A stretch of 64,000 nt of DNA from NCBI GenBank assembly GCA_031213475.1, contig JARUPZ010000020.1, positions 1,674,001 through 1,738,000 of the forward strand. The letters are read 5' to 3'. Positions 6,669 to 64,000 of this stretch are shown piece after piece. Every line of letters starts with the position of its first letter. Position 1 is the first letter of the stretch. The notes under the pieces are model-generated. The model was given only the letters and a program-made list of their open reading frames with translations. It had not been told where the DNA came from and ran no database searches. The DNA is from Nereocystis luetkeana (lineage: Eukaryota > Sar > Phaeophyceae > Laminariales > Laminariaceae). The position numbers and the translations under genes were made by a program.

Positions 6669-7382
6669 GACTACGGGGAGCGTGACCCACGCGTTTCCCT
6701 CAAAGGCTCCGAGGTAGGCTTGATCGCCCTTTGGGGATTCGACGAAGGGCGTGGTACAGTAAGCGTTGACTCCGTGACTTCGCGATCGCAAGGAGGCACC
6801 ACAAGCTTCGGCGTTGTTCTTCCGGCAGCTGCAGTCAATTCTACCGCGGCGTCGCTTCCGGAAAACCCGGGGACCAATCGCTCCGACGTTTTTGGAGGGG
6901 TCGACCGCCCGGACGCGCCACCGGTTACGTGGGCCGTATCGACCGCCCCCGTCGGGGGCCTCGCGCGGTCCCACGACGGTCGACCGGTTTCTCTGCGAGT
7001 CAACGGGAGTGATGCTCACTTGAGGCCTCTGTTCGGCGTCCTGACGCGAGTGCCATTGGGCGGGTCCCTCCTGATGGCCGCTTCGATCGGAAATTCCGCA
7101 GACGAAGAAGGGGAAGAGCAAGTAGTGCTTGGGATAGGCGATGTGGTACCCGTCGGTACCAAGCTGATTTATCGACCGGTCACGGGAGCACACGACCCTT
7201 GGCTCGAGGAAAGCGTTGGCGAGTATGCAGGCGTCGCCGACTGGGCGGCGGAAGGCGAGCCATATGACTGGCTTGGGTATCGAGTGGAGACAGAGGCAGG
7301 GGAAGCGTCCGCGAACGAAGCGGTCGTCGCTCTGAGCGTGCGCCCGACCTTGAATGCGGCTCACGTGGACTGGCCGTCGAAG
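6669..7382 (+). CDS. Exon 1 (first visible): LamG-like fragment and Ig-like module
   Basis: Visible residues 1-238. The motif ALWGFDEGRGT...DS followed by WAVSTAPVGG resembles the start and end of a LamG/concanavalin-type module in shortened form. From about residue 120, VLTRVPLGGSL...YRPVTG...YRVETEAGEASANEAVVALSV matches bacterial-Ig/cadherin-like repeats. The acceptor is placed after TTCTGTGCAG (6668). An alternative in-frame acceptor lies at 6650. The donor is AAG|GTGGGT in phase 0. Earlier exons must exist upstream. Confidence 0.75.
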
Positions 7383-10300
7383 GTGGGTGTTTATGTGCAA
7401 GGCCAGGGACGAGGAGGGGAAAACACGCCGTTTTCGTATCTGACATCGATGTACACTATATATGGAATGTTGCATGAACTAAACTAGTATTCTCGCCACA
7501 TATTGTGTTTTTATCCGATACCCACATTATAATACTCAGTAGTATATTCGTGTACTGTGAATGCACATCAGCTTGATATGCATGGACCCCAATCGTCCAT
7601 GATTCGAAGTGTACGAAGTTCCACGCTCACGTCCAATAACGTGAGCAATCTACGGTAGACAAGCAGTTCGGGTAGGGGTAGTTTGAAAATAAAAACTACG
7701 TGCACGTCGACGGAAAAACTATTTGTGTGAATATCTTGTGCGATGCGGCGTCATCGCTTCCTCGAGAGGAGTTCCTCCTCATTGATTAAGTATTGTCGGT
7801 CGTATGAGCGTCTAAGCATCCGTTGACTAACAGCCAAAACTTCGCAGCTCTTCCGGAGTGCACCACAAATAGCCGCTAAGCCACCTGCATGTTGGCTGCC
7901 AATGACCGAAACCTGCGATGCTGCTACCGTCTTGTTTTTGCGTGCAGGACATAACGTTGTACGACTACGAAATTGTAGACGTTGACGCCTGGGAGGGGGT
8001 GGGTACCCCTCTTCGAGTATCCCTCGACGTGGTCGAAACACTCGGAACGGGCACACACAGCCCGACGGTGTCACTCTCCACCTCCCACACAGAAGGTCTT
8101 AGTTTTGCCGCCCTCGGTGTTGGTGACGGGATCGAAGACTCGTCGATGGCTTTCGTCGCCGGTCTCGACGACGCCAACGACGCCCTTTCGGCGCTGACAC
8201 TCCACACTTCCACAGCCGACGGCGCGGTATCTGCTTCCGGAGTACTTTTGCTTGGAGCTTGCGACTCGGGGGATTGGGCTTCCGACAACAATGGTGCCGT
8301 GGACATCGAAGGACGCGCTGCTTGGTGGGATCGGCGAGAGGGGTGTCCAACAGGAGGGTGGGGGGGGCAAAACGTGACGTTTGGATTTCGCATGGGGACA
8401 ATGCCCATTCTAGAAACCGTATGGCCGACGGCTGCTCCCGTCACCGGAGGGCTGACCATTGAGGTGAGGATGATGTTTGGGGGTACGATGTGAAGACGTT
8501 GACTGCATAGAGAGGCTAACGTGTGCCAGGTACGGCGGTAGGTGCTGATTTTGGTTGTCGCGAGCGTTTTTGGTTTTCAAAGTTTTCAACCCTCTGTCGT
8601 TGCATCGTGATTGCACGAATCATTTGGTCAGTAATATCTTAGATTACGTTCACCAAGAGCTATTCAGTATTTCATGAACTTCTTCCGATTCTCGCGCGGG
8701 AACACTAGACAGATCGCCTTCAGTGTCCGGCTTCAATTGTCACACTATCTATCTTTGAAAGCAATTTCGACTTTGGCCTTGTGCACGCCATATGCCCTGC
8801 GTTGTTGTCGACGCACTCTACCCACAATCACAATGACGACGGTTGTACCTACCGCTGCTACTATTCGGACTTGTCTGTTGGCTAACACCCTCTCAATCCG
8901 TTGTACCAGATCCGAGGGACACACTTTGGTACCTCTGACTACGTCTGCGTTTTCGGCGACCACGAGGCTAGCGCCACCGATGCGCACCAAAGCGCATCAG
9001 GTCTCCTTGAGTGCCCAATACCTCCAGCTCCGAACGATGATGGTAGTGTTCTGGTCGCTGGGCCGACTTCCCTGTATATCATGAGTGCAGTGGGCTTCTA
9101 TAGCAACCGCCTGCGATTCACATACTTCGCGCCCCCTAAACTTCTTGGCGCAGTGCCGAAGTTTGGCCCTCCAGACGGCGGCACCCGTGTGTTAGTGACT
9201 GGTATCGGCTTCGTCGATTACGGAGGCATCGCCTGTTCGTTTGGAGGAGTAGCGGTCCCTGGGAACATACTTTCGGGAACGGAAGTAGTGTGCACGTCCC
9301 CCGCAGTCCCTGTGACCGGTTTGAAAGCGGGAGACGTACACGGGGTACCCCTTCTTGTGACTGTGAATGGGTTTCACTATAGCACAAACGCGCCTGGGGG
9401 TTCGGAGGTGGTAATCTTTGAATACAGCGAAACCCCAGTGGTTTCCTTTGTCTCGCCGAGCACAGGCCCTCCCGCTCTCCACGTCAAAAGTGGAAACAGA
9501 CTCGTGGACGACGGTCAGACGACACGACTCTTGAGAGTCCACGGGGCGCACTTCCGCAACAGCAACGACTTGGCCTGCCGTTTCGGGATGTTATCGACAG
9601 CAGTAGCGTACGTTTCGCCTTCAGAAGTTGACTGTGTCATCCCACCGTACTCGCCTGCAACAGGAGACTCTCCCACTGTTTCGGTGTCAGTGAATGGTGT
9701 CGATTTTACCCGGGAGGGACCGCCCTTCGCCATGTTCACGTATGTTGACATCGCTGAGGTGTTGGGCGTTTCGCCCTCCTTTGGTCCTATCTTCGGTGGA
9801 ACCGAGGTAACCGTCATCGGCAACAACTTTGCCAATGGCGTAACGCTCACGCGACAAGCTTCTTTAATGTGCCGATTCGAATTACTAGTGGATGCTACCG
9901 CTCAGAACGATAATGCGAGCGAAGTAGGCAGTTTCTCTGTATGGGATGTTCCGGCGAATGTTGCTTCTGATAGCGCCGCGACCTGCGTATCGCCTGAGGT
10001 GGCGTCGACCACTGCTTCACGAATAGCATACGCCACGGTTCGCGTCTCAGCAGACGGAGGCATTAACTTTTCAACGTCCGCACCACGCTTTACCTTTTAT
10101 CCGGAGACTACGGTTTCATCTGTGATACCCGCCATTCTACCGGCGTCACAAGGCGGAATAGTCACCATCTCTGGGAGGGGATTTCTTCCAGGCACAGGAT
10201 TGCTTCGTTGCTTGTATGACGAAACCCCTATCATGTCCCACATCGGTCATCAGTTTGAGAAAAACACCTATGTGGGACAGCAGGAAGAATCGCTTGCTTC

Positions 10301-13300
10301 CTTCGCAACCACTGCAGTCTGGCTGTCGCCGGAGCTGCTTCGGTGCGAAGTCCCTGCCGTAGAAGTTCTGGCGGGGACATCCGTGGCGCTAGCCGTTCGT
10401 GTAACGAATAACGGAGTAGATGCATCTTCTAGCGCCGGCCGACTCCTCGTCTATGCTTCGCCGGTGTTGTCAAGCTTCCATCCAATGGCCGGTCCCCGCG
10501 CCGGAGGAACTACCGTCAATCTCACGGTTGATGGCTGGGGGTTACCGGATGACACGGGCGCTATGACTGCCGTAAGGTGTCAGTGGGGAACGACCTTGTC
10601 AACCCCAGGAGACTCGTCTACCGCAAATATAGCTGGACGTATTTTTGTCACTTGTAGATCACCGTCGGCGTCCCTAGTGTCGGCGCGCCATGGTTCCGAT
10701 GTCGCTGACAATTTAGCAGTAGTGACGCTTCAAATAGACGGTCGGAATGCGAGTGTTGCCACAGGTCAGCCTTTTATGTACTATGATGTACCCGTGGTGC
10801 TCAGTGCCTCCCCATCGGTGGGGGGGGAGCTTGGAGGAACCGATGTGGTCCTCAAAGGGTCTGGCTTCGGATTTGGGGAACCGGGGGCAGCTGGTTCCGG
10901 AAAGACAGTGTGCGCATTCGGAGACACGACGGTTGCCGCTGCTGTAGTATCAGACTCGGAGCTGCGATGTCGGTCTCCTATATTTAATGGAGAAAACACG
11001 ACGGCCGCGATGTCGCCGGTCGACTTAAAAGTCTCTTTGAATGGTGGAGTGGACTTCAGCCCTTCCTCTGCACCCTTTCAGTACATGTCGGCGGCGATCA
11101 CATCAGGTAAGCAAAGAGGAGGGCCAACCTGTGACCGTGTTAACGTTGTTCATCACTTGGAGTATTAGGTATATCGGCCGGAAACGATAGACCGCGCTGG
11201 CGAAAATTCCCCCTGTTGTGCATGTGCATGGCGTATCAGTCATGAACGTGATTAACCATCCATACCACCAACCTTGAGACTGCGGCCTACCATGTGAATG
11301 TTCTTTCCAGGCGACGTGCCGTTCATTGCGGCCCGACTAAAGTGTGCCGCATTCCGTCTTTCTTTCCACCCTCAGGAGTTCTTCCCGGGAGTGTCCCTCC
11401 GGGCTCTGTGTCCGAGATAGTTGTAACAGGTAGCGGATTCTTGCCATCGGAGTTGCTGTCGTGCATCTTCCGCTTAGCACCAGGTGCGAATGACTCGTCG
11501 ACTGGTTTTACCAACAGCGAAACGGCAACCGTACTGGCTGCACAAGCGCAACTGATATCTTCCGACGCTGTGGCTTGTACGACTGCGCTTGTGGTAGAAG
11601 CAATGTTGTCATCGTCAATGTCTAAGGCAGCGACATTTCCGTCCACTATCCAAGTCGGAGTGTCGAACAGCGGCGCTGAAACCGACGGCTCTTGGACAGA
11701 CTTGGTGTTGTCGAATGCCCCCGTTCTAGAACGAGCGACGCCAGCGGCAGGGTCTACTACAGGGTGCACGACTGTTACTGTTCGTGGCCACGGATTCCTG
11801 GACTCATCAGACCTCTTGTGCGCGTTCGGGACGACCACGACATCTGCCGTGTTTGTTGACTCCGGCGAGATTTCGTGCCGGACGCCACAATACCATTCCG
11901 GAGATGGAGACTTACCGGTAAGTGTTGCACTCACTGTTAGCAACAACGGCGTGGACTATTCGGAGCTGGCGCTCGACTTCTACTTCATTCCTGCGCCAAC
12001 CGTATCTTCGATATACCCCCGTGTGACCACTATTGAGGATGTTGAGAACGGCCGATCGGTTGTCAACATTCATGGGACGGGCTTCGTCCAGTACTTTGAC
12101 GAAGATTCTCGCGTTGGGGCCGGCAATGGCAAAAGCAGCGGCGCGATACTTAATACGACCTGTAGGTTTGTCGGTATCGGTGATTCTATAGCCGTCGTTG
12201 TGCTTCCAACGATCATTACATGCCCGGTGCCACGTGCTCCCGCCTCGGTGGGTATGGTGGTCGTCACCGTAAGCGTGAACGGACAGGACTTTACAGGTTC
12301 AGAAAGCGGCATAACTCTAGCTATAGTACCAGCACCTCTGGTTGGCTCTTTATTCCCAACAATGGGGCCGTCTCCCGGAGGAACCATGATTCAAGTGTCT
12401 GCGGACAACGTGAGCGAAGTTGACCCGTTGGTGTGCATATTTCAGTTTGGCAACGACACAAGGGTGGGCGTCCCTGCGGAATACGATGGCCGCGGGTTTG
12501 TTAGTTGCACTACCCCCCCTCTTGCATCGGTGGACACGGGCAGAACGGTTACAGACAGGGGAAGAGCAGTGGCGTTAGTGTTCGTTTCCGTTTCCTCAAC
12601 TGCATTGGCGCCAAACCCAGGCATCGGTTCGATGGCGGATTCCGCTGGTACAGAGTTCATCTACTTTTCTACGCCAACGATTTCGTACCTAGACCCCAGC
12701 ACTGGAGCTCCCGGTACAGTAGTGGATGTTGTCGGTGAAGGCTTTTTGGACGCGGTAGGTTTAGCCTGTCGTTTCGGCGGGACGATTGTAGCCGTAGCAT
12801 TCAAGAGCGTCAACCTTGTGACATGTAAAGCGCCTCGGCAAAGTATTTATGGGTCGACTGTGGCGGTTGAAGTGTCGAACAACATGGTCGACTGGACTTC
12901 CAACGGCGTTGCTTTCACAACTCGACCACGCAGCGTACTAGATAGCGTTACTCCCAAGGTTGGCCCGGTGAGTGGGAGCACAATCGTTCGAGTCACAGGG
13001 TTCGACTTTCCCAAAACAAGCAGTAATGATTTTGACAGCAAGATATCGTGCCGGTTCGGGTCGACGATAGTCGCGGCCGCGCCCGCGATGGACGGCGAGT
13101 TGTTCTGTGTTTCTCCGGCAAGTGATCAGGCCGGTTCAGTCAGCTTCGAGATCGCTGAAGATGAATCGGACTTGACCCACAGTGGCTGGCGCTTCCACTA
13201 CGTACCGGACGTCGAAGTGAGCGGAGCCTATCCTTTGACTGGCCCGGAGATGGGTGGCACCGCGGTAGCCATCACTGGATCTCAATTTCTAGGGATGGAG

Positions 13301-58300: not shown

Positions 58301-61300
58301 GGACGCGCCATACTTGAATAAATTTTCCAGGTATCCAACAACGGGTTGGATTTCACGGCGGATCGGGTTTCCTACACCGTGGAGCAGGCGTGTCCTGGAG
58401 GCAGTTTCTGCGTAGGACCCAGCACCACGTCAATCCTACCTTGTCCTCAGGTACGACGTTTTTGTTTTCGGGCAATTTTAACAAAGAATCCACGGCACTA
58501 CGGTAGGATTCACACATCGATAGGCGTAGCGCTCACTCCCGCCCAGTCCATAGCTCGTTGCAAGGCTCACAAGATAACTTGTTGTGGCCTTCGTTAGGCC
58601 CTTTTACTGGCACAAGCAAAACTACACTGCCAGCTCTTCACGCATCGGACAGATTATATCTGTATGTTTCAGCTCATGGTTCCGGGTGGGAGCCGTAATC
58701 TCTGCATGATATCTAGAGCATGTAGCCTGGTTGGATCTGCTCCATCTTGCACACAAATCCTGCACAATTTGGATATTGTTCTATGTTTGGTACATATCCT
58801 GCACAACTTGGACATGTACTCTGTTGGTACACATCCTGTACAGCATGTCACAACGGCAGGTATAGGATCTGCCGCAATAGCGCGCGTCTCTCGCTTACTC
58901 TGACGAACGGAGTCTTGCTCAGGATATCAGGACGCACATGCCACATAACGCGTGCTCCAGACAGCAGCGCTGTCTACGTACCCCTCCGCATCGCTGTAAT
59001 GGCTCGAACGGCTCACCACCTGTGTACGTTTCCTTGTCCACTCTGCCTTGCACCTTCGTTGAGTATTCAGGGGGCGTTCTGCCCGGGGGACTCAAACTCA
59101 AACTTTACCCTGTGCCCGCTCGGTACGTACCAACCAAGCCGGGGCCGCAGTGCATGTCTGCGGTGTCCGATAGGGTTCCATTGCCCCGAGAGGGGCATGC
59201 CTGTCCCCCGTGTGTGCCCTGCGGGACGGGTGTGCGATGTGACGGGCGTATCGACACCCGACCAGCCCTGCCCGGAGGGTCATTTTTGCCTGGAAGGAAC
59301 TGCGACAACAGCCACGACGTGTGGGCACCCGAGGTATGCTGATGGTATCAAGGTTGTGTTTATGCGGTGGGTCGGTGATATTTCACGTCGTTGGGAGGTC
59401 ATGGAACGGCTTGCGAACTGGGAACCCTTGGTGTTTCATTTTTCTGGGTATGGATGTTTTATGAGTGATCAATGTTGAAGGTCATTTTACACGTTGTCGG
59501 ATGGCAGAGATAGTGGTAAGAAGGATAATCAGAATACTAAGTAACTGAAAAAAAAATGTTGATACGAAGAATATGAACAGCGAAATACAATAAAACAACA
59601 TTATCGTATATATGTAACACTTGGAGACACCGTCGGTGTCAGGAAAATGCTGCTGTGCTCACATCGAGTCAGCGCCGCAATCTAGTGCACGTTACAAGAT
59701 AGCAGCTGAAGTGACTCTGCATGTTTCCCCGAACCCACCTGGACGCAGGAAGAACTTGTACTGTATGGTAGCTGCTAACAACCCAGCATCACTCGCATCC
59801 CCCCCCCCCCGCCTTCCAAGACGACGTCGTATGTTCGTCAGCAACAGTTTTTGTGCGTGCCATCTCACATTCCTACGTTTGACCTCCCGAAATTCGCTCG
59901 CGTTTCAGTCCGAGTTCGCGGCTGTTTCCTACGGCTAGCCACGCCGAGCGCACATCGACACTCCGACCTGGATATGAAGCTCTTGGGAGGGATCTTGTCC
60001 TCGGGTCTAGGGCGGTTGCCTGCTGGAATAACGCAACCGAAGACTTCGGACTGCAGATGTCAGACATGCCATCGAGGTGCGTGACGACGCTTTCTGACTC
60101 CAATCCTAACGCCACAACAACAAGTAAGTATTTTCTCTCAACCGCCATACAGCTGGAACCGTTTCTTGGGGATAAAAGACTTGGACTCATACTTTCATAT
60201 ATTTCTCATTGGTCAGGGGGGGTAGTTCACACCCCGTCACTGCACGTGAGCCCGGCAAATATTGGAACGGATGGCCCCATTAACAGGGCGAAGGGGCAAG
60301 CAGGCTTAGATAACGTCTAACATCACCCAGTAGTAGTATCTATGCAGCGTACGATCTTGAATGCGGTGGTAGTTTCCACTCAGAGTCAACAAGACTTTTG
60401 AGCTGACCCCCGTCATTCCGAGGGTGCGGCATAGTGCGGCATACTATGGTCTCCCGATTTTCTTGCTCTGCTGGATTTCTGTACTACACCGAGGTCCCCA
60501 ATCAGCCTCTTGAGCTGACCCGTGATTATCGAGAATACGGTATACTGAATGGACCATGTTATGAGAGATCAGGAGCCGTTCGAGGAAAACATGTTGCTTG
60601 TTGTTGACGAGAGAATTCGACGTTTGATTCATACTCGCTGGCTAATGAGTTCACTTATGTAGCGGCAGCATGGATTATTTTGGTTGATAGCTTGAACGTT
60701 TTTCCCACCCTCGGCTACGTTTCTGCACTACGCAAAGGTTCTGGATGGAAGCGCATACCCGGCCCCTCTCCTACGACTCCCCCTTCACACCACTGCGGGG
60801 CCGTTACTGCCTCGACAGCTCGTGCGCTAGGCTCAAAGACGCGAACGACTACAGGTGAAACGAACTATCGCAGGGGGTGAACAGAGACGAGCCGCCGGTG
60901 ACGCATCGCGAGAGACTGCTGTGGGGTGCGACTGTGCCCGCTTCATGGTACCCATTTTCTATAAATGCCTACCTGGTACCTTATACCTGGGGAGGAGCAC
61001 GCCTTCATCTCTTTGCCGTTGTACTGCCTGCACGTGTACGTACATGCACTCCTGACGGGCCCTGCGCATCGGCGTCGTGTGATTCGGTTGTTTTTACTGG
61101 CTTAGCCTCGGCTAACCGAGCCTCTTGTCTGTCCTTACCTTTCCGGACAGAGTAGTGCCTGGAGAAATAAAACTACCTTCGATCAACAGTTTCTCGACGG
61201 TAGGTACCCACCGGCGAGTCAGAGGCCGTCATAGGTAGCCCTGGGTGAGAGCCTCCCGCAGATCACACCAGAGATGCCTCATTCGATCCCAAACTATGTA

Positions 61301-64000
61301 CCAAGTGCTCCATACGATACAAAACGACGACTGAATTTTTGCAACAGCTAGTACGGTTGGCCTCGGCTAACGGTAGAGTCTCTTGTCCCTACCCCTACTC
61401 GCCATGGTCCGCGTAGGGTTACAGACGCGTCAGGATTCGACTACTCCTCGTTTCGTCTTCGTCGGCCGGTGCCGTGTCCGGCGGGCACCTACTGCCACCC
61501 CGGGTCGGCTTCGGAAGATCTCGGGATGCACAATTTCACCATGCCACAACCATGCCTCGAGGTGACTGCGATAGTATGAGTCCTAATCTCGAAAATGTCT
61601 TGACGATACCCTGGTACGTGTGGTTGTTATTACGGGGGGCCATAGTTAATAGGACCAAATATTGTTAGTAAACATGGTGAAATATATAGGTTTTTATGTT
61701 TACCATAGGTTCTATTGACTATGGCCCCCCGTAATAGCATTTTGTCCCTCCTATTTCTTCCTTTCCTGTTTTTCGGTTGTCTTTTCTATTTATTTCCTGC
61801 CGTGGCGGGCAACCCGCCCTCTCTCTTCCTTCATTTTCAGTGTTCCTTTCGTTCTTTCTCTCCGTTTCGTTCTTGATGGTGTACGAGTATGTAGTCACCA
61901 GTGGCATCGCTACATGGTCTCACCAGACAAATCGGTTGCACCAAATACCAACACGTTCCCAGCTGTGAGGTAGACAGACATACTTGTTTGTCCTCACAAA
62001 AGAATGTCACCACGCAGCAGCGCACCACTTGTCGGAAATAATGAATTAACGCAAGCCAACTGTATGTAAACGTTCTCTATCCGCCCAAACTTGACCACTG
62101 CCAGAGCATGTTTTGTCCGGAGGGGAGCCCGCGCCCATCCGGGGTGGGCGAGTGCCCTTCAGGGTTCTACTGCCCTACAGGCATACGTCTTGCGTGTCCG
62201 GTGGGGACCTACTGCCCGCGCGAGGGTCACTGGGACCCGATGCCCTGTCCGCCGGGCGAGTTCAGCGCAATGGTCGGACAGGCGGCGTGCACCTCCTGCC
62301 CGCGAGGGTACATATGCCCCGGCTTCGGCCGCATCGACCCTACGCCATGTCCGTCAGGGATGGTGTGCAGCCGGATAATTCTAACCTCGCCCAATCAGCG
62401 ATGCCCGCCGGGTAAGGAGTACGCCCGCGACCACATGGGTAGAGTACGCCCGCGACCACATGGGTAGTAATTTTTTGGCTAATTTATTTCTGATTGGCGG
62501 GTGCTCCTTAAGGGCACTGCAAAACTGCCCAACGAGGCATATGCCTCATCGGCAATTCTTGTGCTGCTGCGTTCCATCGTATATCACTAAAAAACGATAA
62601 ATTTTCTCGGGGGGGGGAGCGATCATTTCTCAGCGCTCGACTCTTCTCGGCAGAGGCAAGAGGGCACTATTGATAAGCAAACTCGAACATTGTTTTTCTT
62701 CTCGGAAAGGCTCTCTCTCTCGACCAGGTCCCTTCCCGAAAACAGCACCCTTTGCTTGGCAATGACAACCTTCTTCCCGTTCTGGAAAAATTGTGCGCTG
62801 AACGAACGATCGTACCCCTGCCCGCGAGAAGTCAGCGCGCTTTGCGGTATGAATAGATAGACCGTGGGAGTTTTTATCGCGTTACACATTCCTGACTTTA
62901 TCTCAAGTCATGGTTTTGGATATGGTAGACAGCTCCTCAGTTGGAAATCCTCAGAAAAAAATGGAAAACATCGACCATCGCATGCGTGGGAGGGTACGTA
63001 GACGATGCATGTTGACCAGAACCGAATCGTTGAGAGAGTGCACCCACGATCGTAGGCACCCAACACTCGAAATTTGTTTCAGTGTAGGGTTACGTTTTTC
63101 ATACTTTGTAGGGAGTTGCATGGACACAGGGCTATCAACCCTACCGGGACTGCGGTCCCGTTTTTGGGGGAAAAGTACTTACAATTAGAGTGTTTCGTCT
63201 CCGGAGCGGGACTCCAGTTCTAAGCGGGATAAGGGGTGAAAAACGTTTCATGAGTTGTTTTTCTTCAGGAGACGGTAATCAGATACCAGGTATGCTTTTA
63301 TAGCGGGAATGATGATCCTGTTTCTTGCGAGAAGGGTGTTACCACTTGCTCTACACTGTAAGCTGGGGGTCACTGTGTACGATAGGAATGTAGCTGGCCG
63401 TATGCCGATCAGAATCGATCAACCATTGGCTAGCTCTGTAGTGTACCCCAACCATAGTTTCGAATAAACATTATTTAGGCTGAACCCTGCTACTGTTTCT
63501 TGCAGAGGGTTGAACTTCAAGATGTACAGTAGTATTAGATGGTAGTCTTTGGGTTCTACACTGCACACGTGGCAACGTAGCATCTCTGTGGCGTAGCTTT
63601 GAGACCACAGAACTTGTATCTCTTCTAGGATTGAAGAATCGGCACGGACACTGGTTGTGCTGGATGTCGACGGGTAGAAAGAACGGTTTAATGTGAAGAA
63701 CACACACACATTGACCTATCGATACTACAACCCTTGCCGGCAAAACCACGGGTGCGCCGTCCACAGCGAAACGTTTTGGGCCCAAAATATAGAAAGCACG
63801 TCTGTACCATTGCCGGGTCCGTTCGGTTCGTCTCTCCCTTAACCATGTTAACACCCCACTAGTGGCGTGCTGTGGACCTGGCAAACATTTACGATTTTGA
63901 CATGTGTCTTTTCTCTATGTGTGGCGTGCTGTGAAGGCTTTTACTGCCCGTCCGGGACCGTGACTTCGGACCCGTTCCGAAACGACACGACCTTGCGTCC
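6669..64000 (+). CDS. Giant multi-IPT/TIG extracellular protein gene (partial, 50 exons)
   Basis: One gene fills the rest of the window. I chained 50 exons by GT-AG sites with matching codon phase at all 49 junctions, giving 33,188 coding bases (about 11,060 residues) with no stop. Modules in order are: LamG-like fragment and Ig/cadherin-like modules (visible residues 1-400); IPT/TIG 1-56 (about 400-5990); a second beta-sandwich repeat, copies 1-10 (about 6000-7200); IPT 57-59; repeats 11-15; IPT 60-62; repeats 16-28; IPT 63-66 (about 10220-10680); then GCC2/GCC3-like Cys-rich modules to the edge. Domain counts are by eye. IPT/TIG is an immunoglobulin-like beta sandwich. Here most copies carry two cysteines (LxCRFG...CxSPP), and NxT/S sequons are common, so an extracellular role in adhesion or matrix is inferred. 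Both ends are missing, and there is no visible start codon, signal peptide, membrane segment or promoter. The introns hold repeats only, except where noted. An unrelated split into two genes cannot be excluded but no junction suggests it. Confidence 0.85.
7383..7947 (+). other. Intron 1
   Basis: A 565-bp GT-AG intron, donor GTGGGT, acceptor CGTGCAG. I see nothing else in it. Confidence 0.75.
7948..8463 (+). CDS. Exon 2: cadherin-like module and start of IPT 1
   Basis: Residues 239-410. The pattern DVDAWEGVGTPLRVSL...AFVAGLDDANDALSALTL is that of cadherin-like tandem repeats (DVD..., then LADxNxALxxL). It is followed by the first IPT start, PILETVWPTAAPVTGGLTIE. The exon ends GAG|GTGAGG in phase 0, cutting IPT 1 after its first strands. 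Confidence 0.85.
8464..8909 (+). other. Intron 2
   Basis: A 446-bp intron, GTGAGG...TACCAG. Nothing else is seen in it. Confidence 0.75.
8910..11106 (+). CDS. Exon 3: IPT/TIG domains 1-7
   Basis: Residues 411-1142. The exon completes IPT 1 (IRGTHFGTSDYVCVFG) and carries IPT 2-7, each starting like VLGVSPSFGPIFGGTEVTV and containing CxFG...CxSP. IPT 3 has an insert before its GGT-equivalent. The exon ends TCAG|GTAAGC in phase 1, a few residues into IPT 8. Confidence 0.9.
11376..17350 (+). CDS. Exon 4: IPT/TIG domains 8-28 in one 5,975-bp exon
   Basis: Residues 1143-3134, about 21 IPT domains in tandem with a period of about 95 residues. Each has a variant of P.V..V.P..GP..GGT.V.V.G.GF, then LxCRFG, then C.SPP, then a VSNNGxDFT-like strand and an aromatic (FxYxP) end. 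The acceptor CCCTCAG at 11375 is chosen because its phase (1) matches exon 3. The nearer upstream CCAG at 11311 does not fit the phase. The donor is CAG|GTGAGA in phase 0. IPT 12 lacks part of the GGT loop. Confidence 0.93.
17811..18737 (+). CDS. Exon 5: IPT/TIG domains 29-31
   Basis: Residues 3135-3443. It begins VPIIHSITP, a standard IPT start, right after CAGCAG. IPT 30 and 31 have LVSGGTPVILEGSGF and QPLGGTRITVVGDEF. The polypyrimidine tract before 17811 is weak. A stronger one ends at 17714, and an exon from 17715 would also be in frame and add 32 residues. The donor is AAG|GTCAGC in phase 0. Confidence 0.8.
18959..20470 (+). CDS. Exon 6: IPT/TIG domains 32-36 and half of 37
   Basis: Residues 3444-3947. 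It starts VMKLTPTSGSSKDGATI after CTTTTTCTTCAG. Five IPT units follow, then the first strands of IPT 37 (VFKVVPARG...TPVE). The intron cuts IPT 37 at E|I, the same place as in IPT 1 and IPT 63. The donor is GAG|GTAAGA in phase 0. Confidence 0.9.
20786..21652 (+). CDS. Exon 7: rest of IPT 37, IPT 38-39
   Basis: Residues 3948-4236. It starts IYGAGFVNRTGLLRCRFG, completing IPT 37. IPT 38 has SGPDTGGTVITVLGTGF and IPT 39 has RGPAAGGTVVEIGGANF. The acceptor is CTGCTCAG and the donor is CTG|GTAAGT in phase 0. Confidence 0.9.
22102..24648 (+). CDS. Exon 8: IPT/TIG domains 40-48
   Basis: Residues 4237-5085. It starts IFVYEGSVQVVSLSPG, so the first residues finish IPT 39. Nine IPT starts follow. IPT 43 has an insert (VALSDIQGEVF) in place of the usual GxGF loop. 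IPT 48 is cut after YSCSFGDIE by the donor GAG|GTGAGC in phase 0. The acceptor CACACCAG has only a modest pyrimidine tract. Confidence 0.88.
24915..27401 (+). CDS. Exon 9: end of IPT 48, IPT 49-55
   Basis: Residues 5086-5914. It starts VTGRALNDSTLECVSPAAP, giving IPT 48 its second cysteine. IPT 49-55 follow, with clear GPxxGGTxVxVSGSGF cores. The acceptor is CACCAAG and the donor CAG|GTGAAG in phase 0. Intron 8 before it contains a G12 run at 24748-24759. Confidence 0.9.
27926..28153 (+). CDS. Exon 10: IPT/TIG domain 56
   Basis: Residues 5915-5990. It starts VHFVTPDRGPTTGGTVLTV after TTTTCAACCCAG and holds LLCRFG and VQCTAPP. This is the last IPT of the long array. The donor is GAG|GTGAGT in phase 0. 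Intron 9 before it (27402-27925) holds two TACCAGGTA words. Confidence 0.88.
28571..28789 (+). CDS. Exon 11: transition from IPT array to second repeat type
   Basis: Residues 5991-6063. ISPACSASNGFKQVQRVSVSS begins after CTTTCTTTTTAG. The first 13 codons would be lost if the in-frame acceptor at 28609 is used instead. The word VQRVSV introduces the EVQxI-type strand seen throughout the next region. The donor is CAG|GTGAGT in phase 0. Confidence 0.75.
29191..29265 (+). CDS. Exon 12: 75-bp exon, EVQRITV strand
   Basis: Residues 6064-6088, VIYTLLDLAREVQRITVDAS and on to SE. The acceptor is CAACTCTCAG and the donor GAG|GTAAGT in phase 0. There is no in-frame ATG, so simple ORF calling misses it. 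Its fit rests on phase and on the EVQ-I motif shared with neighbours. Confidence 0.75.
29448..29561 (+). CDS. Exon 13: second-type repeat 1, first half
   Basis: Residues 6089-6126. VQQITVASLDASSLTGSFAL, then VPFNATANE. This is the GSFxL...FNATxxE half of the repeat. It ends GAG|GTGAGG, at the E|V/L junction where introns recur in other copies. Confidence 0.82.
30206..30400 (+). CDS. Exon 14: second half of repeat 1
   Basis: Residues 6127-6191. LEEALAGIPSLGGGIVVRED is the ALExLxxVxxVxV half, followed by DLAAITVITSGLSGIGLNAT, the strand pair that closes each unit. The acceptor is ATTCTTAG and the donor GAG|GTAACG in phase 0. Intron 13 before it (644 bp) holds nothing else that I see. Confidence 0.82.
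30781..30924 (+). CDS. Exon 15: first half of repeat 2
   Basis: Residues 6192-6239. It holds CEVQEVSTRG...GGTFTLTYGGETTPGIPWNSTSDTLQAALE (quoted in parts). There is no in-frame ATG, so it is easily missed. The acceptor is GTCGAACAG and the donor GAG|GTGGGA in phase 0. Confidence 0.8.
30925..31805 (+). other. Intron 15
   Basis: An 881-bp intron ending TTCCTTTCTTTCAG. Minus-strand open frames across it have no domain. I see no repeat or gene. Confidence 0.65.
31806..32289 (+). CDS. Exon 16: end of repeat 2, repeat 3
   Basis: Residues 6240-6400. SLDSVGHLMVNL continues from the ALE of exon 15. TWAVAFIGTAGDLPLLEVNG is the WxVxFxGxxGDLPLL strand pair. Repeat 3 follows with GTVEVTFDVDG, SASEVQEALRALGG and DVHVSTG. 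The donor GGAG|GTGAGG is in phase 1. Confidence 0.88.
32580..32683 (+). CDS. Exon 17: end of repeat 3
   Basis: Residues 6401-6435. After CTTTGCAG the phase-1 join gives G, then STWLVTFPEGQNHEPFEVTT, the WLVTF closing strand. The donor is GAA|GTAAGT in phase 0. Confidence 0.85.
33165..33249 (+). CDS. Exon 18: start of repeat 4
   Basis: Residues 6436-6463. VVTGTQLEVQVIETLGTPTG, then SFFLGFVQ. The donor CAAG|GTCAGG (phase 1) was chosen because it matches exon 19 and restores the motif spacing. GTCAGG is a weaker donor. The open frame runs on into the intron but loses the pattern. Confidence 0.75.
33579..33925 (+). CDS. Exon 19: repeat 4, with 5' part of repeat 5
   Basis: Residues 6464-6579. 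EETDDLAFDASASDVKSALE, then LTNVGTVNVTRDD, then YAWSITF. It ends RVKRGTLGPLSGQ. The acceptor is CGACGCAG in phase 1 and the donor is CAG|GTAACG in phase 0. Intron 18 before it holds a G13 run at 33473-33485. Confidence 0.85.
34234..34421 (+). CDS. Exon 20: repeat 5
   Basis: Residues 6580-6641. VILSFENTSSTVMSATLALA, then HDVSADEMKEAISSLADES and GDLHVSRESNG. The donor splits an Arg codon (phase 2), TACAG|GTGGGA. Confidence 0.83.
34732..35012 (+). CDS. Exon 21: end of repeat 5, repeat 6
   Basis: Residues 6642-6735. The join gives R-WAVTFLDLAGNLPKLSINAT. Repeat 6 has GGNFSLTFDSV and DDLHEALEDVVTP. The acceptor is TTGAATAG. The donor CCAG|GTAATA is in phase 1. An alternative phase-0 donor ten bases upstream (GTG|GTAACG) does not fit exon 22. 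Confidence 0.83.
35268..35578 (+). CDS. Exon 22: end of repeat 6, start of repeat 7
   Basis: Residues 6736-6839. QWGSITVDHKELLDGGYLW, then SVRFDDYSMVARVGGAPLI. Repeat 7 starts with TGSFELSLEGVVTRSISVGV. The donor is AAT|GTGAGT in phase 0. Confidence 0.85.
35579..36659 (+). other. Intron 22
   Basis: A 1,081-bp intron, GTGAGT...CACTGCAG. Short frames on both strands have no domain. I see no repeat or gene in it. Confidence 0.65.
36660..37460 (+). CDS. Exon 23: end of repeat 7, repeats 8 and 9
   Basis: Residues 6840-7106. It starts VLRADFSSLGVQPTVASVGA. Repeat 8 has GAFTLTTV, SLAFNATASQVRAALEALGG and STYLVTFPG. Repeat 9 has GEFALSVGGQQGSSLPFDA and FRWAVTFSGGDVGGNVDLME. The donor is GAG|GTGAGG in phase 0. 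Confidence 0.9.
37751..39721 (+). CDS. Exon 24: repeat 10, IPT 57-59, repeat 11
   Basis: Residues 7107-7763. Repeat 10 has GGTFTLAFDGSTSPPISWNA and AVEAALESLPQVGDVSVL. A VSANGGVDYT strand leads into three IPT domains (AGPISGGTQVVVSGTGF; a shortened IPT 58 with RRGSNAGGHSIVV; GLGVDGGGTSVIVHGSRF). Repeat 11 follows with GTWTLSLEEF and STALSALPNIGNATVI. It ends GAG|GTCAGA. This exon proves that both repeat types belong to one protein. Confidence 0.92.
39975..40616 (+). CDS. Exon 25: repeats 12 and 13
   Basis: Residues 7764-7977. It starts VQIVTLSADAALSGEFTVTY, then YAWTVMFDDLEAG. Repeat 13 has RGTFDIAFGVEDV, VEVAIEALSGVGDATVDV and FTVAWPASRGNIPLLRVNG. The donor GAG|GTTGGT is unusual, but its phase (0) fits exon 26. 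Confidence 0.88.
40856..41086 (+). CDS. Exon 26: repeat 14
   Basis: Residues 7978-8054. TVNGTDTMGGEFYLVAGINA, then LAYNASASQVAKAVNSM and FEWHLTFSAADENVEQLR. The acceptor is CTCAACAG and the donor CGG|GTGAGA in phase 0. Confidence 0.86.
41268..41441 (+). CDS. Exon 27: first half of repeat 15
   Basis: Residues 8055-8112. IEVYTAVNGSFEDLSGNFTL, then RYGVQNTTWPLPFNATADEV and ESALE. There is no useful in-frame ATG. The acceptor is CTTGTTTAG and the donor GAG|GTATGA in phase 0, cutting after ALE as in repeat 2. Confidence 0.82.
41826..41957 (+). CDS. Exon 28: second half of repeat 15
   Basis: Residues 8113-8156. ALDEIGDINVTVQERYVREE, then GRQWVIAFTTLGSPAHVGSI. The acceptor is CTTTACCAG and the donor CAG|GTGATA in phase 0. 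Confidence 0.82.
42325..43566 (+). CDS. Exon 29: IPT 60-62
   Basis: Residues 8157-8570. A closing strand (TLGIDDDQLVGTGAVGTV) and a VSSNGGSDW strand lead into three IPT domains: SGPAIGGTAVTV, SGPVKGGTLIEIS and YGPVTGGNPVRVEGGPF. IPT 60 and 61 carry long inserts before their CLF motif. The donor is GAG|GTACAG in phase 0. Confidence 0.92.
44042..44215 (+). CDS. Exon 30: EVQ-type linker strands
   Basis: Residues 8571-8628. VWTLAWAPEIQTISVLGNKP, then FPEVQSVTVSYDDVDEVQTI. Three E(I/V)Q-xI/V strands appear in a row without a complete repeat body. The donor CAG|GTATTT is only moderate. Phase 0. Confidence 0.78.
44216..45096 (+). other. Intron 30, with an exon-like remnant
   Basis: An 881-bp intron. 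At 44713-44760, right after CTGTATAG, sixteen codons read EVLKLSAKLQTELMNE, which looks like an EVQ-type linker, but no GT donor follows GAG and a stop comes two codons later. It may be a lost exon. Confidence 0.45.
45097..45267 (+). CDS. Exon 31: EVQ-type linker strands
   Basis: Residues 8629-8685. VTVTLTIETSQPEIQELRLS, then REVQSIVVKPFAVDGSASAL. It continues the linker style of exon 30. The acceptor is CCGGTGGAG and the donor AAG|GTGGGT in phase 0. Confidence 0.75.
45416..45706 (+). CDS. Exon 32: repeat 16
   Basis: Residues 8686-8782. GDGSGDGTFSLEYNGGVASV, then SGAGLLLAAIEANF and RSFLVKFPADLGDVAAIVG. The unit lacks the usual NAT sequon. The acceptor is GCTTGACAG and the donor CAG|GTGATA in phase 0. 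Confidence 0.84.
45707..46454 (+). other. Intron 32, with exon-like cassettes
   Basis: A 748-bp intron. At 45826-45837 a 12-bp block (GAAACGATACAG, E-T-I-Q) is flanked by CTTTTTTTCTCAG and GTG. Two diverged direct copies of an approximately 75-bp segment follow (about 45904 and 46028), each beginning with AG and then GAGACGRTCAA. None of them is needed to join exons 32 and 33. Short C runs occur in the second copy. Confidence 0.55.
46455..46562 (+). CDS. Exon 33: first half of repeat 17
   Basis: Residues 8783-8818. EVQRIYQSGPATGGTFGLSF, then SVAYNATSEE. There is no in-frame ATG. The acceptor is CATTTGCAG and the donor GAG|GTGATA in phase 0, at the recurrent E|V/I site. Confidence 0.83.
46980..47264 (+). 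CDS. Exon 34: rest of repeat 17, first half of repeat 18
   Basis: Residues 8819-8913. IRMAVEAISSVGEVLASRNV, then EWLVTFMNNAGDLPLLVADS. Repeat 18 has GSFELGVSGD and SHDASSGE. The donor GAG|GTATGT is in phase 0, again at E|V. Confidence 0.87.
47265..48018 (+). other. Intron 34
   Basis: A 754-bp intron, GTATGT...GCCTAG. I see nothing else in it. Confidence 0.65.
48019..48412 (+). CDS. Exon 35: rest of repeat 18, repeat 19
   Basis: Residues 8914-9044. VEAAVESLYNMSGVDVSRFK, then LWTVTFPTYSGDVSSLYINS. Repeat 19 has GGYFSLYATGG with a 20-residue insert before PLAWNAEADDVRMAIEDLLP. The donor CAAG|GTGATG is in phase 1. Confidence 0.85.
48434..48637. repeat. 102-bp tandem duplication in intron 35
   Basis: Copies lie at 48434-48535 and 48536-48637 and differ at four positions as I align them. 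The array begins 22 bases after the exon 35 donor, wholly inside the 856-bp intron 35 (48413-49268). The high identity means a recent duplication. Confidence 0.92.
49269..49576 (+). CDS. Exon 36: end of repeat 19, first half of repeat 20
   Basis: Residues 9045-9147. The phase-1 join gives G-DITVSRRNTSGT. SWMITFPLAARNAVNLGVDG is the closing strand pair. Repeat 20 has IQRVSTSAGSEVYGGFTLGF and VYNATAHE. The donor GAG|GTGAGG is in phase 0, at the recurrent E|V. Confidence 0.86.
49577..50692 (+). other. Intron 36
   Basis: A 1,116-bp intron, AT-richer than its flanks, with a few scattered copies of TAGATCATGAA between about 50300 and 50500. No gene or mobile element is recognised. Confidence 0.6.
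50693..50896 (+). CDS. Exon 37: second half of repeat 20
   Basis: Residues 9148-9215. VEIALQRLPGLANVTVSRGD, then FDWLITFTGLVGLQPLLQ. The stretch between them (PAENAATRWYASSHLRKSLN) is longer than usual. The acceptor is GTGACCAG and the donor CAG|GTGGGT in phase 0. Confidence 0.86.
51112..51969 (+). CDS. Exon 38: repeats 21-22 and first half of 23
   Basis: Residues 9216-9501. Repeat 21 has DGTWYLSLDGEFSTRIDAG and NVSVTDGTEG...SWVITF. Repeat 22 has ECSVVASWDSGATYAIPAF and WVSNEG...VWSVTFVGNA. Repeat 23 starts GGAFVLSFEGNYTEQIPYNA. The donor GAG|GTGCGA is in phase 0, at the recurrent E|V. Confidence 0.88.
52218..54428 (+). CDS. Exon 39: repeats 23-28 and start of IPT 63
   Basis: Residues 9502-10238. 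VKTALEYLPSIDNVTVSAAD completes repeat 23. Repeats 24-28 follow without an intron, each with a GxFxL start, an AxxVxxA helix-like segment, a VTV strand and WxVTF. Repeats 27 and 28 have inserts. The end is a VVALEISQNAGRDYTSSGVV strand and IPT 63 up to GPTYGGTE. The donor is GAG|GTGAGG in phase 0. Confidence 0.92.
54429..55081 (+). other. Intron 39
   Basis: A 653-bp intron, GTGAGG...TTTGGCAG. I see nothing else in it. Confidence 0.65.
55082..55452 (+). CDS. Exon 40: IPT 63, first part of IPT 64
   Basis: Residues 10239-10361. VLVLGENFRHSSRLACRFGP, then LLCVSPARLAS and VEVTNNAAVGG. IPT 64 starts PEIYDVFPHLGPASGNFSVR. The donor splits an Arg codon in phase 2 (CTAAG|GTGCTT), just before the CRFG motif. 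Confidence 0.87.
55774..55936 (+). CDS. Exon 41: rest of IPT 64
   Basis: Residues 10362-10416. The join restores LRCRFGG. Then WSPSEVQCYAPTLEAGTYPL and LNDQDYTDRRFPFLYFDDQ follow, the normal end of an IPT. The acceptor is CTGCTGCAG and the donor CAG|GTGAGT in phase 0. Confidence 0.88.
56247..56591 (+). CDS. Exon 42: IPT 65
   Basis: Residues 10417-10531. VLSRVTPISGPAEAAGTAVT, then KLACRFALAPPVPATF and LSCEAPP. A long insert rich in Ser/Asp follows. The donor GAG|GTTGGT is the same unusual form as after exon 25. Phase 0. Confidence 0.83.
57188..57565 (+). CDS. Exon 43: end of IPT 65, IPT 66
   Basis: Residues 10532-10657. VTCNDQDYTDSGISFLYQ ends IPT 65. IPT 66 has KSGLDPGGFGLFVTGENF, LACRVGGSNT and VLCFVPRTAL, then a Gly/Asp-rich insert before IFVE. 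The acceptor is CTCGCTACAG and the donor GAG|GTGAGC in phase 0. Confidence 0.87.
57566..58330 (+). other. Intron 43
   Basis: A 765-bp intron, GTGAGC...TTTTCCAG. It holds a TACCTGGTA word at 57719 and the GGGTC repeat at 58017-58190, listed separately. Confidence 0.7.
58017..58190. repeat. GGGTC-rich repeat with inverted end
   Basis: Runs of GGGTC units (cgggtcgggtcgggtcgg) alternate with 'aggaggtatttcaaa'-like spacers. The right end turns into the complement (cccgatccgacccgacc), so the strand can fold back on itself. Confidence 0.75.
58331..58450 (+). CDS. Exon 44: end of IPT 66, start of Cys-rich region
   Basis: Residues 10658-10697. VSNNGLDFTADRVSYTVEQA is the last IPT strand. It passes directly into CPGGSFCVG...LPCPQ, the first GCC2/GCC3-like cysteines. 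This exon links the IPT part to the Cys-rich tail. The donor is CAG|GTACGA in phase 0. Confidence 0.85.
58757..58850. repeat. Imperfect 37-39-bp tandem repeat in intron 44
   Basis: The word ATCCTGCACAA...TTGG...GTTGGTACA recurs at 58757, 58796 and 58833, about 2.5 copies. It lies in the 620-bp intron 44 (58451-59070), which otherwise shows nothing. Confidence 0.7.
59071..59333 (+). CDS. Exon 45: GCC2/GCC3-like cysteine-rich modules
   Basis: Residues 10698-10784. GAFCPGDSNSNFTLCPLGTY, then ACLRCPIGFHCPERGMPVPR, VCPAGRVCDV and CPEGHFCLEG. The spacing CPxGxxC...C..C follows the GCC2/GCC3 (ephrin-receptor-like) Cys-rich pattern. The donor splits a codon in phase 2 (CCGAG|GTATGC). Confidence 0.88.
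59334..59908 (+). other. Intron 45
   Basis: A 575-bp intron, GTATGC...CGTTTCAG, with a C12 run at 59799-59810. Nothing else is seen. Confidence 0.65.
59909..60123 (+). CDS. Exon 46: ACWNNATEDFGLQ module
   Basis: Residues 10785-10856. SPSSRLFPTASHAERTSTLR, then LGSRAVACWNNATEDFGLQM. The acceptor TTTCAG and donor CAA|GTAAGT are strong and the phases (2 in, 1 out) fit. The correct frame has no usable ATG near its start and would be missed by ORF calling. From memory, similar ACW.N.T..FGLQ text occurs in other large stramenopile proteins. I cannot check that here. Confidence 0.78.
60124..60751 (+). other. Intron 46
   Basis: A 628-bp intron. Two imperfect copies of 'cttttgagctgacccccgtcatt..gagggtgcggcata' lie at about 60394 and 60509. 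Nothing else is recognised. Confidence 0.5.
60752..60854 (+). CDS. Exon 47: SPFTPLRGRYC module
   Basis: Residues 10857-10890. HTRPLSYDSPFTPLRGRYCL, then DSSCARLKDANDY. The body and donor (TACAG|GTGAAA, phase 2) are convincing. The acceptor GGAAG at 60751 has a weak pyrimidine tract and was chosen mainly by phase. The left boundary may be wrong by some codons. Confidence 0.62.
60855..61416 (+). other. Intron 47
   Basis: A 562-bp intron. A short duplicated block, 'cctcggctaac...gtctcttgtcc.taccc', occurs at about 61103 and 61361, and TACCTGGTA at 60970. Nothing else is seen. Confidence 0.55.
61417..61561 (+). CDS. Exon 48: FDYSSFRLRRPVPCP module
   Basis: Residues 10891-10939. The join gives R-VTDASGFDYSSFRLRRPV, then PCPAGTYCHPGSASEDL and NFTMPQPCLE. 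The acceptor CCGCGTAG is the only nearby one in phase 2. Two later AGs are out of phase. The donor is GAG|GTGACT in phase 0. The correct frame has no early ATG. Confidence 0.78.
61628..61736. mobile_element. MITE copy D, in intron 48
   Basis: This 109-bp element belongs to the family seen at 2.5-2.9 kb and is closest to copy B. Its ends are TATTACGGGGGGCC and GGCCCCCCGTAATA, with paired changes in both ends that keep the inverted repeat intact. It is flanked by intron sequence 66 bases after the exon 48 donor, and intron 48 (61562-62104) holds nothing else. Confidence 0.9.
62105..62411 (+). CDS. Exon 49: GCC2/GCC3-like cysteine-rich modules
   Basis: Residues 10940-11041. SMFCPEGSPRPSGVGECPSG, then FYCPTGIRLACPVGTYCPRE and ACTSCPRGYICPGFGRIDPT. 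It has about 16 cysteines in CPxGxxCP-type spacing. The acceptor is ACTGCCAG. The donor CCGG|GTAAGG is in phase 1 and matches exon 50. Confidence 0.9.
62412..63936 (+). other. Intron 49, the longest intron
   Basis: 1,525 bp. Besides the 25-bp duplication it holds, at 63270-63290, a 21-bp block reading ETVIRYQ that follows GTTTTTCTTCAG and is followed by GTATGC, so it resembles a microexon. A TACCAGGTA word spans that possible donor. No gene is seen on either strand. Confidence 0.55.
62417..62466. repeat. Perfect 25-bp tandem duplication at the intron 49 donor
   Basis: Two identical 25-bp units (62417-62441 and 62442-62466) begin five bases inside the intron, right after GTAAG. The exon frame stays open through both and stops just after. 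Confidence 0.92.
63937..64000 (+). CDS. Exon 50 (cut by window edge): Cys-rich module
   Basis: Residues 11042-11062 and on. The phase-1 join gives G-FYCPSGTVTSDPFRNDTTLR, continuing CPPG from exon 49 in the usual spacing. The acceptor is GCTGTGAAG. The exon is open at the window edge. Confidence 0.85.

Follow-up and report, generated by a model that had tools for sequence, protein, structure and literature searches.

A giant intron-rich gene of the alga Nereocystis luetkeana predicted to encode a membrane-anchored surface protein with TIG and R2 repeat arrays

Among proteins with extracellular IPT/TIG domains, PKHD1L1 (Fibrocystin-L) is described as a coat protein of stereocilia; its 4,249 aa contain 13 IPT domains as well as G8 and PbH1 and a single transmembrane segment (PMC6707252). 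In Dictyostelium the TIG domains of the Tgr proteins are reported to be critical for cell-cell binding, as far as the consulted part of that work goes (PMC12324515). IPT and Fibrocystin-L entries are also present in an expression table of a marine heterotrophic flagellate (PMC7852580). In the literature searched, which comprised open-licence papers, we found neither giant TIG proteins of algae nor the combination of 65 TIG domains, 28 R2 repeats, a Cys-rich stalk and a multi-pass membrane tail that is described here.

The gene was found in a 64,000-nucleotide stretch of the N. luetkeana genome (C20:1674001-1738000, hereafter the window) from an assembly of 465 Mb and 1,987 contigs, among them C20, C12, C24 and C2. 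Coordinates are given relative to the window unless a contig is named, and all features described in it lie on the plus strand. According to the gene model, the window contains most of one huge, intron-rich gene for a predicted rope-like protein of the cell surface, whose length we put, as a very rough estimate, at 13,000 residues. We consider it fairly probable that the product is a membrane-anchored extracellular tether encoded by a single very large gene. Such a protein would resemble Fibrocystin-L/PKHD1L1 in its long extracellular IPT/TIG run, its membrane anchor and a role in a coat or in adhesion, and would differ from it in having 65 TIG domains, the R2 repeat, a Cys-rich stalk and a multi-pass tail (compared with the extract of PMC6707252). 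The transmembrane adhesion receptors TgrB1 and TgrC1, with extracellular TIG domains in cell-cell binding, are similar to our reading of C20 in the part of the source consulted (PMC12324515). Plexins have the TIG domains in common with the C20 product, the tail of which is multi-pass. The Dictyostelium Tgr proteins are far shorter and are not known to carry R2 or an Ephrin-receptor-like part.

The exon structure was modelled by splice-aware dynamic programming, independently of the exons proposed in a first-pass annotation of the same DNA. The coding score was frame-specific, took four bases of context into account at each codon position and was trained on long open frames of this region and of the relative on contig C12; the GT-AG splice-site matrices were retrained on the C20 locus. 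The resulting model spans 6669-57565 in 46 exons, and its 31,941 bases read as 10,647 codons free of stops, a continuity of frame to which the method itself contributes. All 45 introns were of the GT-AG type, which was nearly forced as the search permits little else; 36 of them were in phase 0. Each of the 45 contained an in-frame stop and none could be read through. The exon 30781-30924 was absent from the first model and was found since exon 31806 contained only half an R2 copy; its end joins exon 31806 in frame and completes that copy.

Guided by homology to C12, the model gave 53 exons and 33,020 coding bases for the part of the gene in the window (6669-64000), from where it ran on to the right. 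This agrees with the one giant gene, open across 6669-64000, that had been proposed earlier with 50 exons and 33,188 bases by hand count. A few exons of the homology-guided model are doubtful, e.g. 57895-58086, 59990-60076 and 63269-63289. The first-pass annotation had also placed both ends of the gene outside the window. For the right end this held, the gene extending to at least 117 kb, whereas no left end was found: position 6669 is an acceptor inside the gene, and the ATG of the model at 6274 is weak. Neither a start codon nor a signal peptide was found in the splice models. The two exons ahead of the TIG array (6669-7382 and 7948-8463, spanning 6669-8463) gave no Pfam family above cut-off, and the end of the second aligned weakly to the C12 paralog (E 0.012).

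The junctions were tested with profiles made from single-exon copies only, and the spliced domain was compared with the best single-exon piece and with mis-joined controls. Splicing raised the score above that of the best single-exon piece for all 14 R2 and for eight of the nine TIG domains with a junction inside them; the one TIG failure was the junction 56591/57188, which is doubtful. Only three of the 14 R2 and three of the nine TIG domains outscored every mis-joined control, partly because other exons start at the same repeat position. At the sequence level this semi-independent test supports real splicing, without proving each single junction. The same result bears on the rather unlikely alternative that the splice model wrongly joined two or more adjacent genes, with the TIG array, the R2 repeats and the Cys-rich membrane part belonging to separate proteins. 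That most of the junction-spanning domains do not exceed all controls would be in line with separate genes, as would the partly forced frame and a joined transcript that comes from the model alone; the TIG and R2 domains are, however, intermingled, and introns interrupt them. In the single-gene reading the whole would be expressed as one transcript. When the 45 introns were compared with each other by blastn no match at E<=1e-3 was obtained, and introner-like insertions were thus ruled out. As no intron resembles another, a recent spread of one intron type was not seen.

TIG domains were counted on the spliced protein with iterated profiles seeded from a few copies (domain E<=1e-3). With 65 domains the count came close to the approximately 66 IPT/TIG domains claimed before. 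The order in the protein was 56 TIG, 15 R2 with two TIG among them, three TIG, 13 R2 and four TIG. The first array of 56 domains (8404-28153; profiles and Pfam) begins in exon 7948-8463, which holds the start of the first domain, and continues through exons 8910-11106, 11376-17350, 17886-18737, 18959-20470, 20786-21796, 22102-24648, 24915-27401 and 27926-28153. By profiles, a pair of TIG domains lies inside the first R2 block at 38225-38509 and 38927-39157. Three more are found at 42544-44044 and the last four at 54381-57427, both sets by profiles and Pfam; three of the last four are split by introns in the model, which includes the doubtful junction above. All nine large exons or frames with TIG that were scanned matched the Pfam family PF01833 (TIG). 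Many stretches exceeded its gathering score of 20.9 bits, the largest frame with 609.9 bits, and the small exon 55082-55450 alone reached 19.7 bits, just under the gathering score.

Among pairs with at least 40 aligned columns the identity of TIG copies did not exceed 47% inside one gene or 49% between C20 and C12. An assembly artefact or a recent tandem amplification was ruled out by these values, and the array must therefore be old. The best match was in the same gene for 43 of the 65 C20 copies and for 30 of the 61 C12 copies. From the sequences we infer that the TIG array is probably older than the split between the two genes. The mean identity was slightly raised at a spacing of 3, 6 and 9 domains (0.308, 0.314 and 0.312, versus about 0.30), a pattern that may hint at an old three-domain duplication unit. 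Of the PF01833 matches listed for this genome, 98 of 98 were on C20 or C12 (115 candidates scored; these counts are lower bounds).

The second repeat, R2, is about 92 residues long. Iterated profiles (E<=1e-2) gave 28 whole or partial matches in the spliced C20 protein, the same number of copies, about 28, as had been noticed by eye; several were partial and two were just 25-27 aa. Profiles placed 15 R2, some of them partial, in the first block (29490-42396), mostly in small exons and with the two TIG domains inserted, and 13, again some partial, in the second block (45431-54275). Exon 52218-54428 contains five R2 wholly and the end of a sixth. The Pfam copy searched gave nothing convincing for R2, and NCBIfam gave no match.

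In the same genome R2 was found in at least two further large loci, on C24 and C2. The C24 locus (C24:9750639-9904743, minus strand) accounted for 21 of the 42 R2 rows listed for the genome, 10 of these 21 at E<=0.05, over approx. 154 kb. Frames of 2122 and 1460 codons there combine R2 with fibronectin type III domains, and the locus is perhaps a still larger giant gene, or a cluster. At C2:20434649-20445568 there were two R2 rows, with a 1228-codon frame that contains four R2 and cadherin-like stretches under the Pfam cut-off. In the stretches of C24 and C2 that were read no TIG was detected; of the two repeats R2 was present alone. An equally weak R2 match (E 0.49) was observed once each on C13, C377, C1731 and C1852, in 107-codon frames, as if carried by a repeated element. 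In the same assembly plastid rbcL gave the same top score on 103 contigs, and plastid DNA seems to account for a large share of the small contigs. The rbcL product has 488 aa, and the PDB chains closest to it are of the red-lineage type, a plastid type in keeping with a brown alga.

The paralog on C12 contains 62 TIG domains in open frames and 61 in its spliced model of 38 exons and 8,444 residues, which runs to the end of the stretch compared. No R2 was detected in it by profiles. The frame at C12:1987276-2002959 is open for 5,228 codons, and one predicted exon holds 15,595 bases of the array. The single exon on C12 and the many introns on C20 could be explained either by intron loss on C12 or by intron gain on C20. 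Frames that by eye resemble retroelements (reverse transcriptase or gag-pol, integrase) flank the paralog at C12:1965001-1975000 and C12:2034001-2038100.

The C20 contig from 30 kb left to 70 kb right of the window was compared by tblastx with 80 kb around the C12 relative. The matches followed the same order in both: the last TIG domains, then a Cys-rich part at 59.1-65.3 kb and then a tail with matches at 95.5, 101.8, 107.5, 109.9, 112.1, 112.8 and 117.0 kb (window coordinates). The Cys-rich exons (59071-59333, 61417-61561, 62105-62411 and 63937-64000 and on, to about 65.4 kb) are Ephrin-receptor-like by Pfam and collinear with C12. They correspond to the Cys-rich tail of the first-pass annotation. 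PF07699 (Ephrin_rec_like) scored 29.1 bits here, versus a cut-off of 23.1, and 28.3 bits in the longer Cys-rich piece of C12, the shorter piece giving no match; PF07699 is the former GCC2_GCC3. Both families that had been named for a Pfam search were found, PF01833 in the large exons and PF07699 in the Cys-rich part.

Beyond the Cys-rich part, six of the eight stop-free tblastx matches between C20 and C12 (E<=0.05) formed one collinear chain. Among the controls, one match was left with C12 reverse-complemented and none with C12 reversed, and no block shuffle out of 20 gave more than one. The other two matches were off the chain, and one of them also resembles other spots on C20 and is therefore probably a dispersed repeat. 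The single tail matches had 29-47% identity to the one diverged paralog. The homology-guided model of the C20 gene comprised 109 exons and 12,987 residues including the stop, of which 15 exons were shorter than 30 bp; with the weak similarity to a single paralog, this makes the tail model uncertain in detail. Its stop was near 127.7 kb, and beyond 117 kb the coding score alone supports the model. When a piece of the C12 tail was used as a whole-genome query only C12 itself was recovered and even C20 was missed; this search was thus too weak, and other distant copies may be overlooked. For the adjacent-genes alternative, the collinearity is a further objection: C12 carries a TIG array, a Cys-rich part of the same kind and the same membrane tail in the same order. 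That TIG occurs without R2 on C12, and R2 without TIG in the stretches read on C24 and C2, would on the other hand be compatible with separate genes.

Hydrophobic windows in the tails merged, where they overlapped, from 11 into eight segments in C12 and from nine into seven in C20. The multi-pass tail common to both genes lies beyond the window, and the product is thus probably an integral membrane protein and not a free matrix protein. The giant extracellular adhesion or matrix protein suggested by the first-pass annotation accordingly kept its extracellular character and lost the free matrix option, membrane anchoring being probable from the collinear tail. The topology of the C20 product would be that of an extracellular repeat region followed by this tail. 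Neither tail gave a convincing match to a Pfam family or a PDB sequence, and we consider that it may represent a further unnamed family.

The 7-8 segments in the C20 and C12 tails also differ from the single transmembrane segment that defines a fibrocystin. The large exons and tail pieces of C20 were scanned with Pfam, a set that leaves most small exons at 28-51 kb and the N-terminus outside; in it we detected none of G8 and PbH1, as in fibrocystin/PKHD1L1, and none of Sema, PSI and RasGAP, as in plexins. A surface receptor in the manner of plexins, with TIG domains for ligand binding and a tail for signalling, would fit the TIG domains and the membrane-attached tail. The missing plexin domains in the parts scanned, the several hydrophobic segments instead of one and an array far longer than a binding module requires make it very improbable. 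By the features tested in the parts scanned, the C20 product appears to be neither a plexin nor a fibrocystin.

Outside this genome R2 was found in phages and bacteria. Against PDB sequences the R2 profile built from the window alone matched the tail tip cage protein gp23 of mycobacteriophage Bxb1 with E 1.2e-25. With bacterial copies added, the profile gave 7.4e-37 for Bxb1 gp23, 1.4e-8 for the major capsid protein and 7e-5 for the tail tube, and its first unrelated PDB match was at E 0.0096. The window-only profile also matched two phage proteins with E 3e-18 and 6e-14. At E<=0.1 a single R2 copy matched 355 of 50,697 phage records, the best with 2e-5; Mycobacterium phages accounted for 333 of the 355, and tail sheath proteins for 12 of the best 15. 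PHROGs tail families were obtained for five of six R2 queries, and exon 52218-54428, the largest R2 exon, gave none. The single copy gave no confirmed match in the genome contigs and viral contigs searched. A consensus query led to seven bacterial loci, with frames that carry 1-11 R2 domains, and to no phage match. In Schlesneria sp. (G002:C139) a frame of 13,314 codons holds all 21 R2 matches (E<=1e-5) of that genome. Among 99 planctomycete genomes drawn evenly five had R2, the query genome being one of the five, and R2 is thus uncommon there. The same TIG profile detected no TIG in the seven bacterial loci.

For the predicted R2 structure of model 1, of medium confidence (pLDDT 75.8), the best Foldseek match was Bxb1 gp23 (prob 0.84, query TM 0.57), with an E value of 0.5 that is not significant, and for model 2 (pLDDT 73.0) gp23 was ranked fifth (prob 0.30, E 3.0). 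By sequence comparison R2 clearly matches an uncatalogued domain that also occurs in bacteriophage particles and giant bacterial proteins. The idea of a lineage-specific protein hence did not hold for the second repeat. Like the C20 protein, Bxb1 gp23, major capsid protein and tail tube and the Bixzunavirus tail sheath carry R2, but in phages it is appended to virion proteins singly or in a few copies, whereas in C20 it forms a long array in a predicted eukaryotic membrane protein. The giant frames of planctomycetes and other bacteria, such as Schlesneria sp., are similar to C20 in holding many R2 in a giant open frame and differ in being intronless and without detected TIG. The Ig-like domains of phage Douge bind mycobacterial glycans according to the part of the source consulted (PMC13033339). 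We do not extend such glycan binding to R2; no chain labelled Douge was noted among the PDB matches of the R2 profiles.

R2 profiles also weakly matched two mutually related chains of PDB 9ufe, OCM5 (E 0.16) and a 'Tubular mastigoneme protein' (E 0.067). These matches would suit a flagellar-surface or mastigoneme-associated protein of swimming cells, a reading we regard as improbable. With the widest R2 profile the two chains gave 0.64 and 0.19 and fell below unrelated matches (a designed helical protein at 0.0087, ribosomal protein L23), and profile comparison between R2 and the OCM5 stretch gave a probability of 40.9. The OCM5 stretch was unmatched in this genome, which shows little without a positive control. 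With E values of 0.067-0.64 among unrelated matches the mastigoneme link of R2 was not significant, and we treat it as a lead and not as evidence.

For the membrane-anchored tether, the reading frame, the exons, the domain counts, the collinearity with C12 through the membrane part and the hydrophobic segments were computed. From the outside inwards, the protein would consist of an N-terminal region, 56 TIG domains of Ig fold, two R2 blocks broken by five TIG domains, and four TIG domains. A disulphide-rich, Ephrin-receptor-like stalk would follow, then a large folded ectodomain, the 7-8 hydrophobic segments and a probably cytoplasmic end. Together the repeats may make up a rod some hundreds of nanometres long, which would extend across the wall or coat of the cell, or through it, and bind partner proteins or polysaccharides. 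It could serve in cell-wall anchoring, or in cell-cell or flagellar adhesion; a role in adhesion is suggested by the type of domain. The multi-pass tail would hold the tether in the membrane and possibly relay tension. More tentatively, we can imagine that R2 reached the alga from bacteria or phages and was amplified into wall- or coat-binding arrays on C20, C24 and C2. The C20 product might then belong to an undescribed class of giant multi-pass tethers with an unnamed tail, and R2 might be a travelling surface-binding domain, displayed on the capsids, tails and sheaths of actinophages and strung into giant proteins by some planctomycetes.

TIG and Ephrin_rec_like are known domains, and it is their joining with R2, the stalk and the tail that appears to be new. 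If expressed as modelled, the C20 product would rank among the very large proteins of algae and would carry five times as many TIG domains as PKHD1L1, for which 13 are given (PMC6707252). An ancient TIG array seems to have been kept in two very different gene structures, in many exons on C20 and in one exon of 15.6 kb on C12. Larger algal proteins exist, e.g. the PKZILLA synthases. Through R2, a surface protein of a eukaryote would be connected with a domain that occurs in bacteriophage particles and is absent from the Pfam copy searched. Multicellular algae arrived at cell adhesion by an evolutionary path separate from those of animals and plants, and giant candidate tethers such as this one would make that evolution testable.
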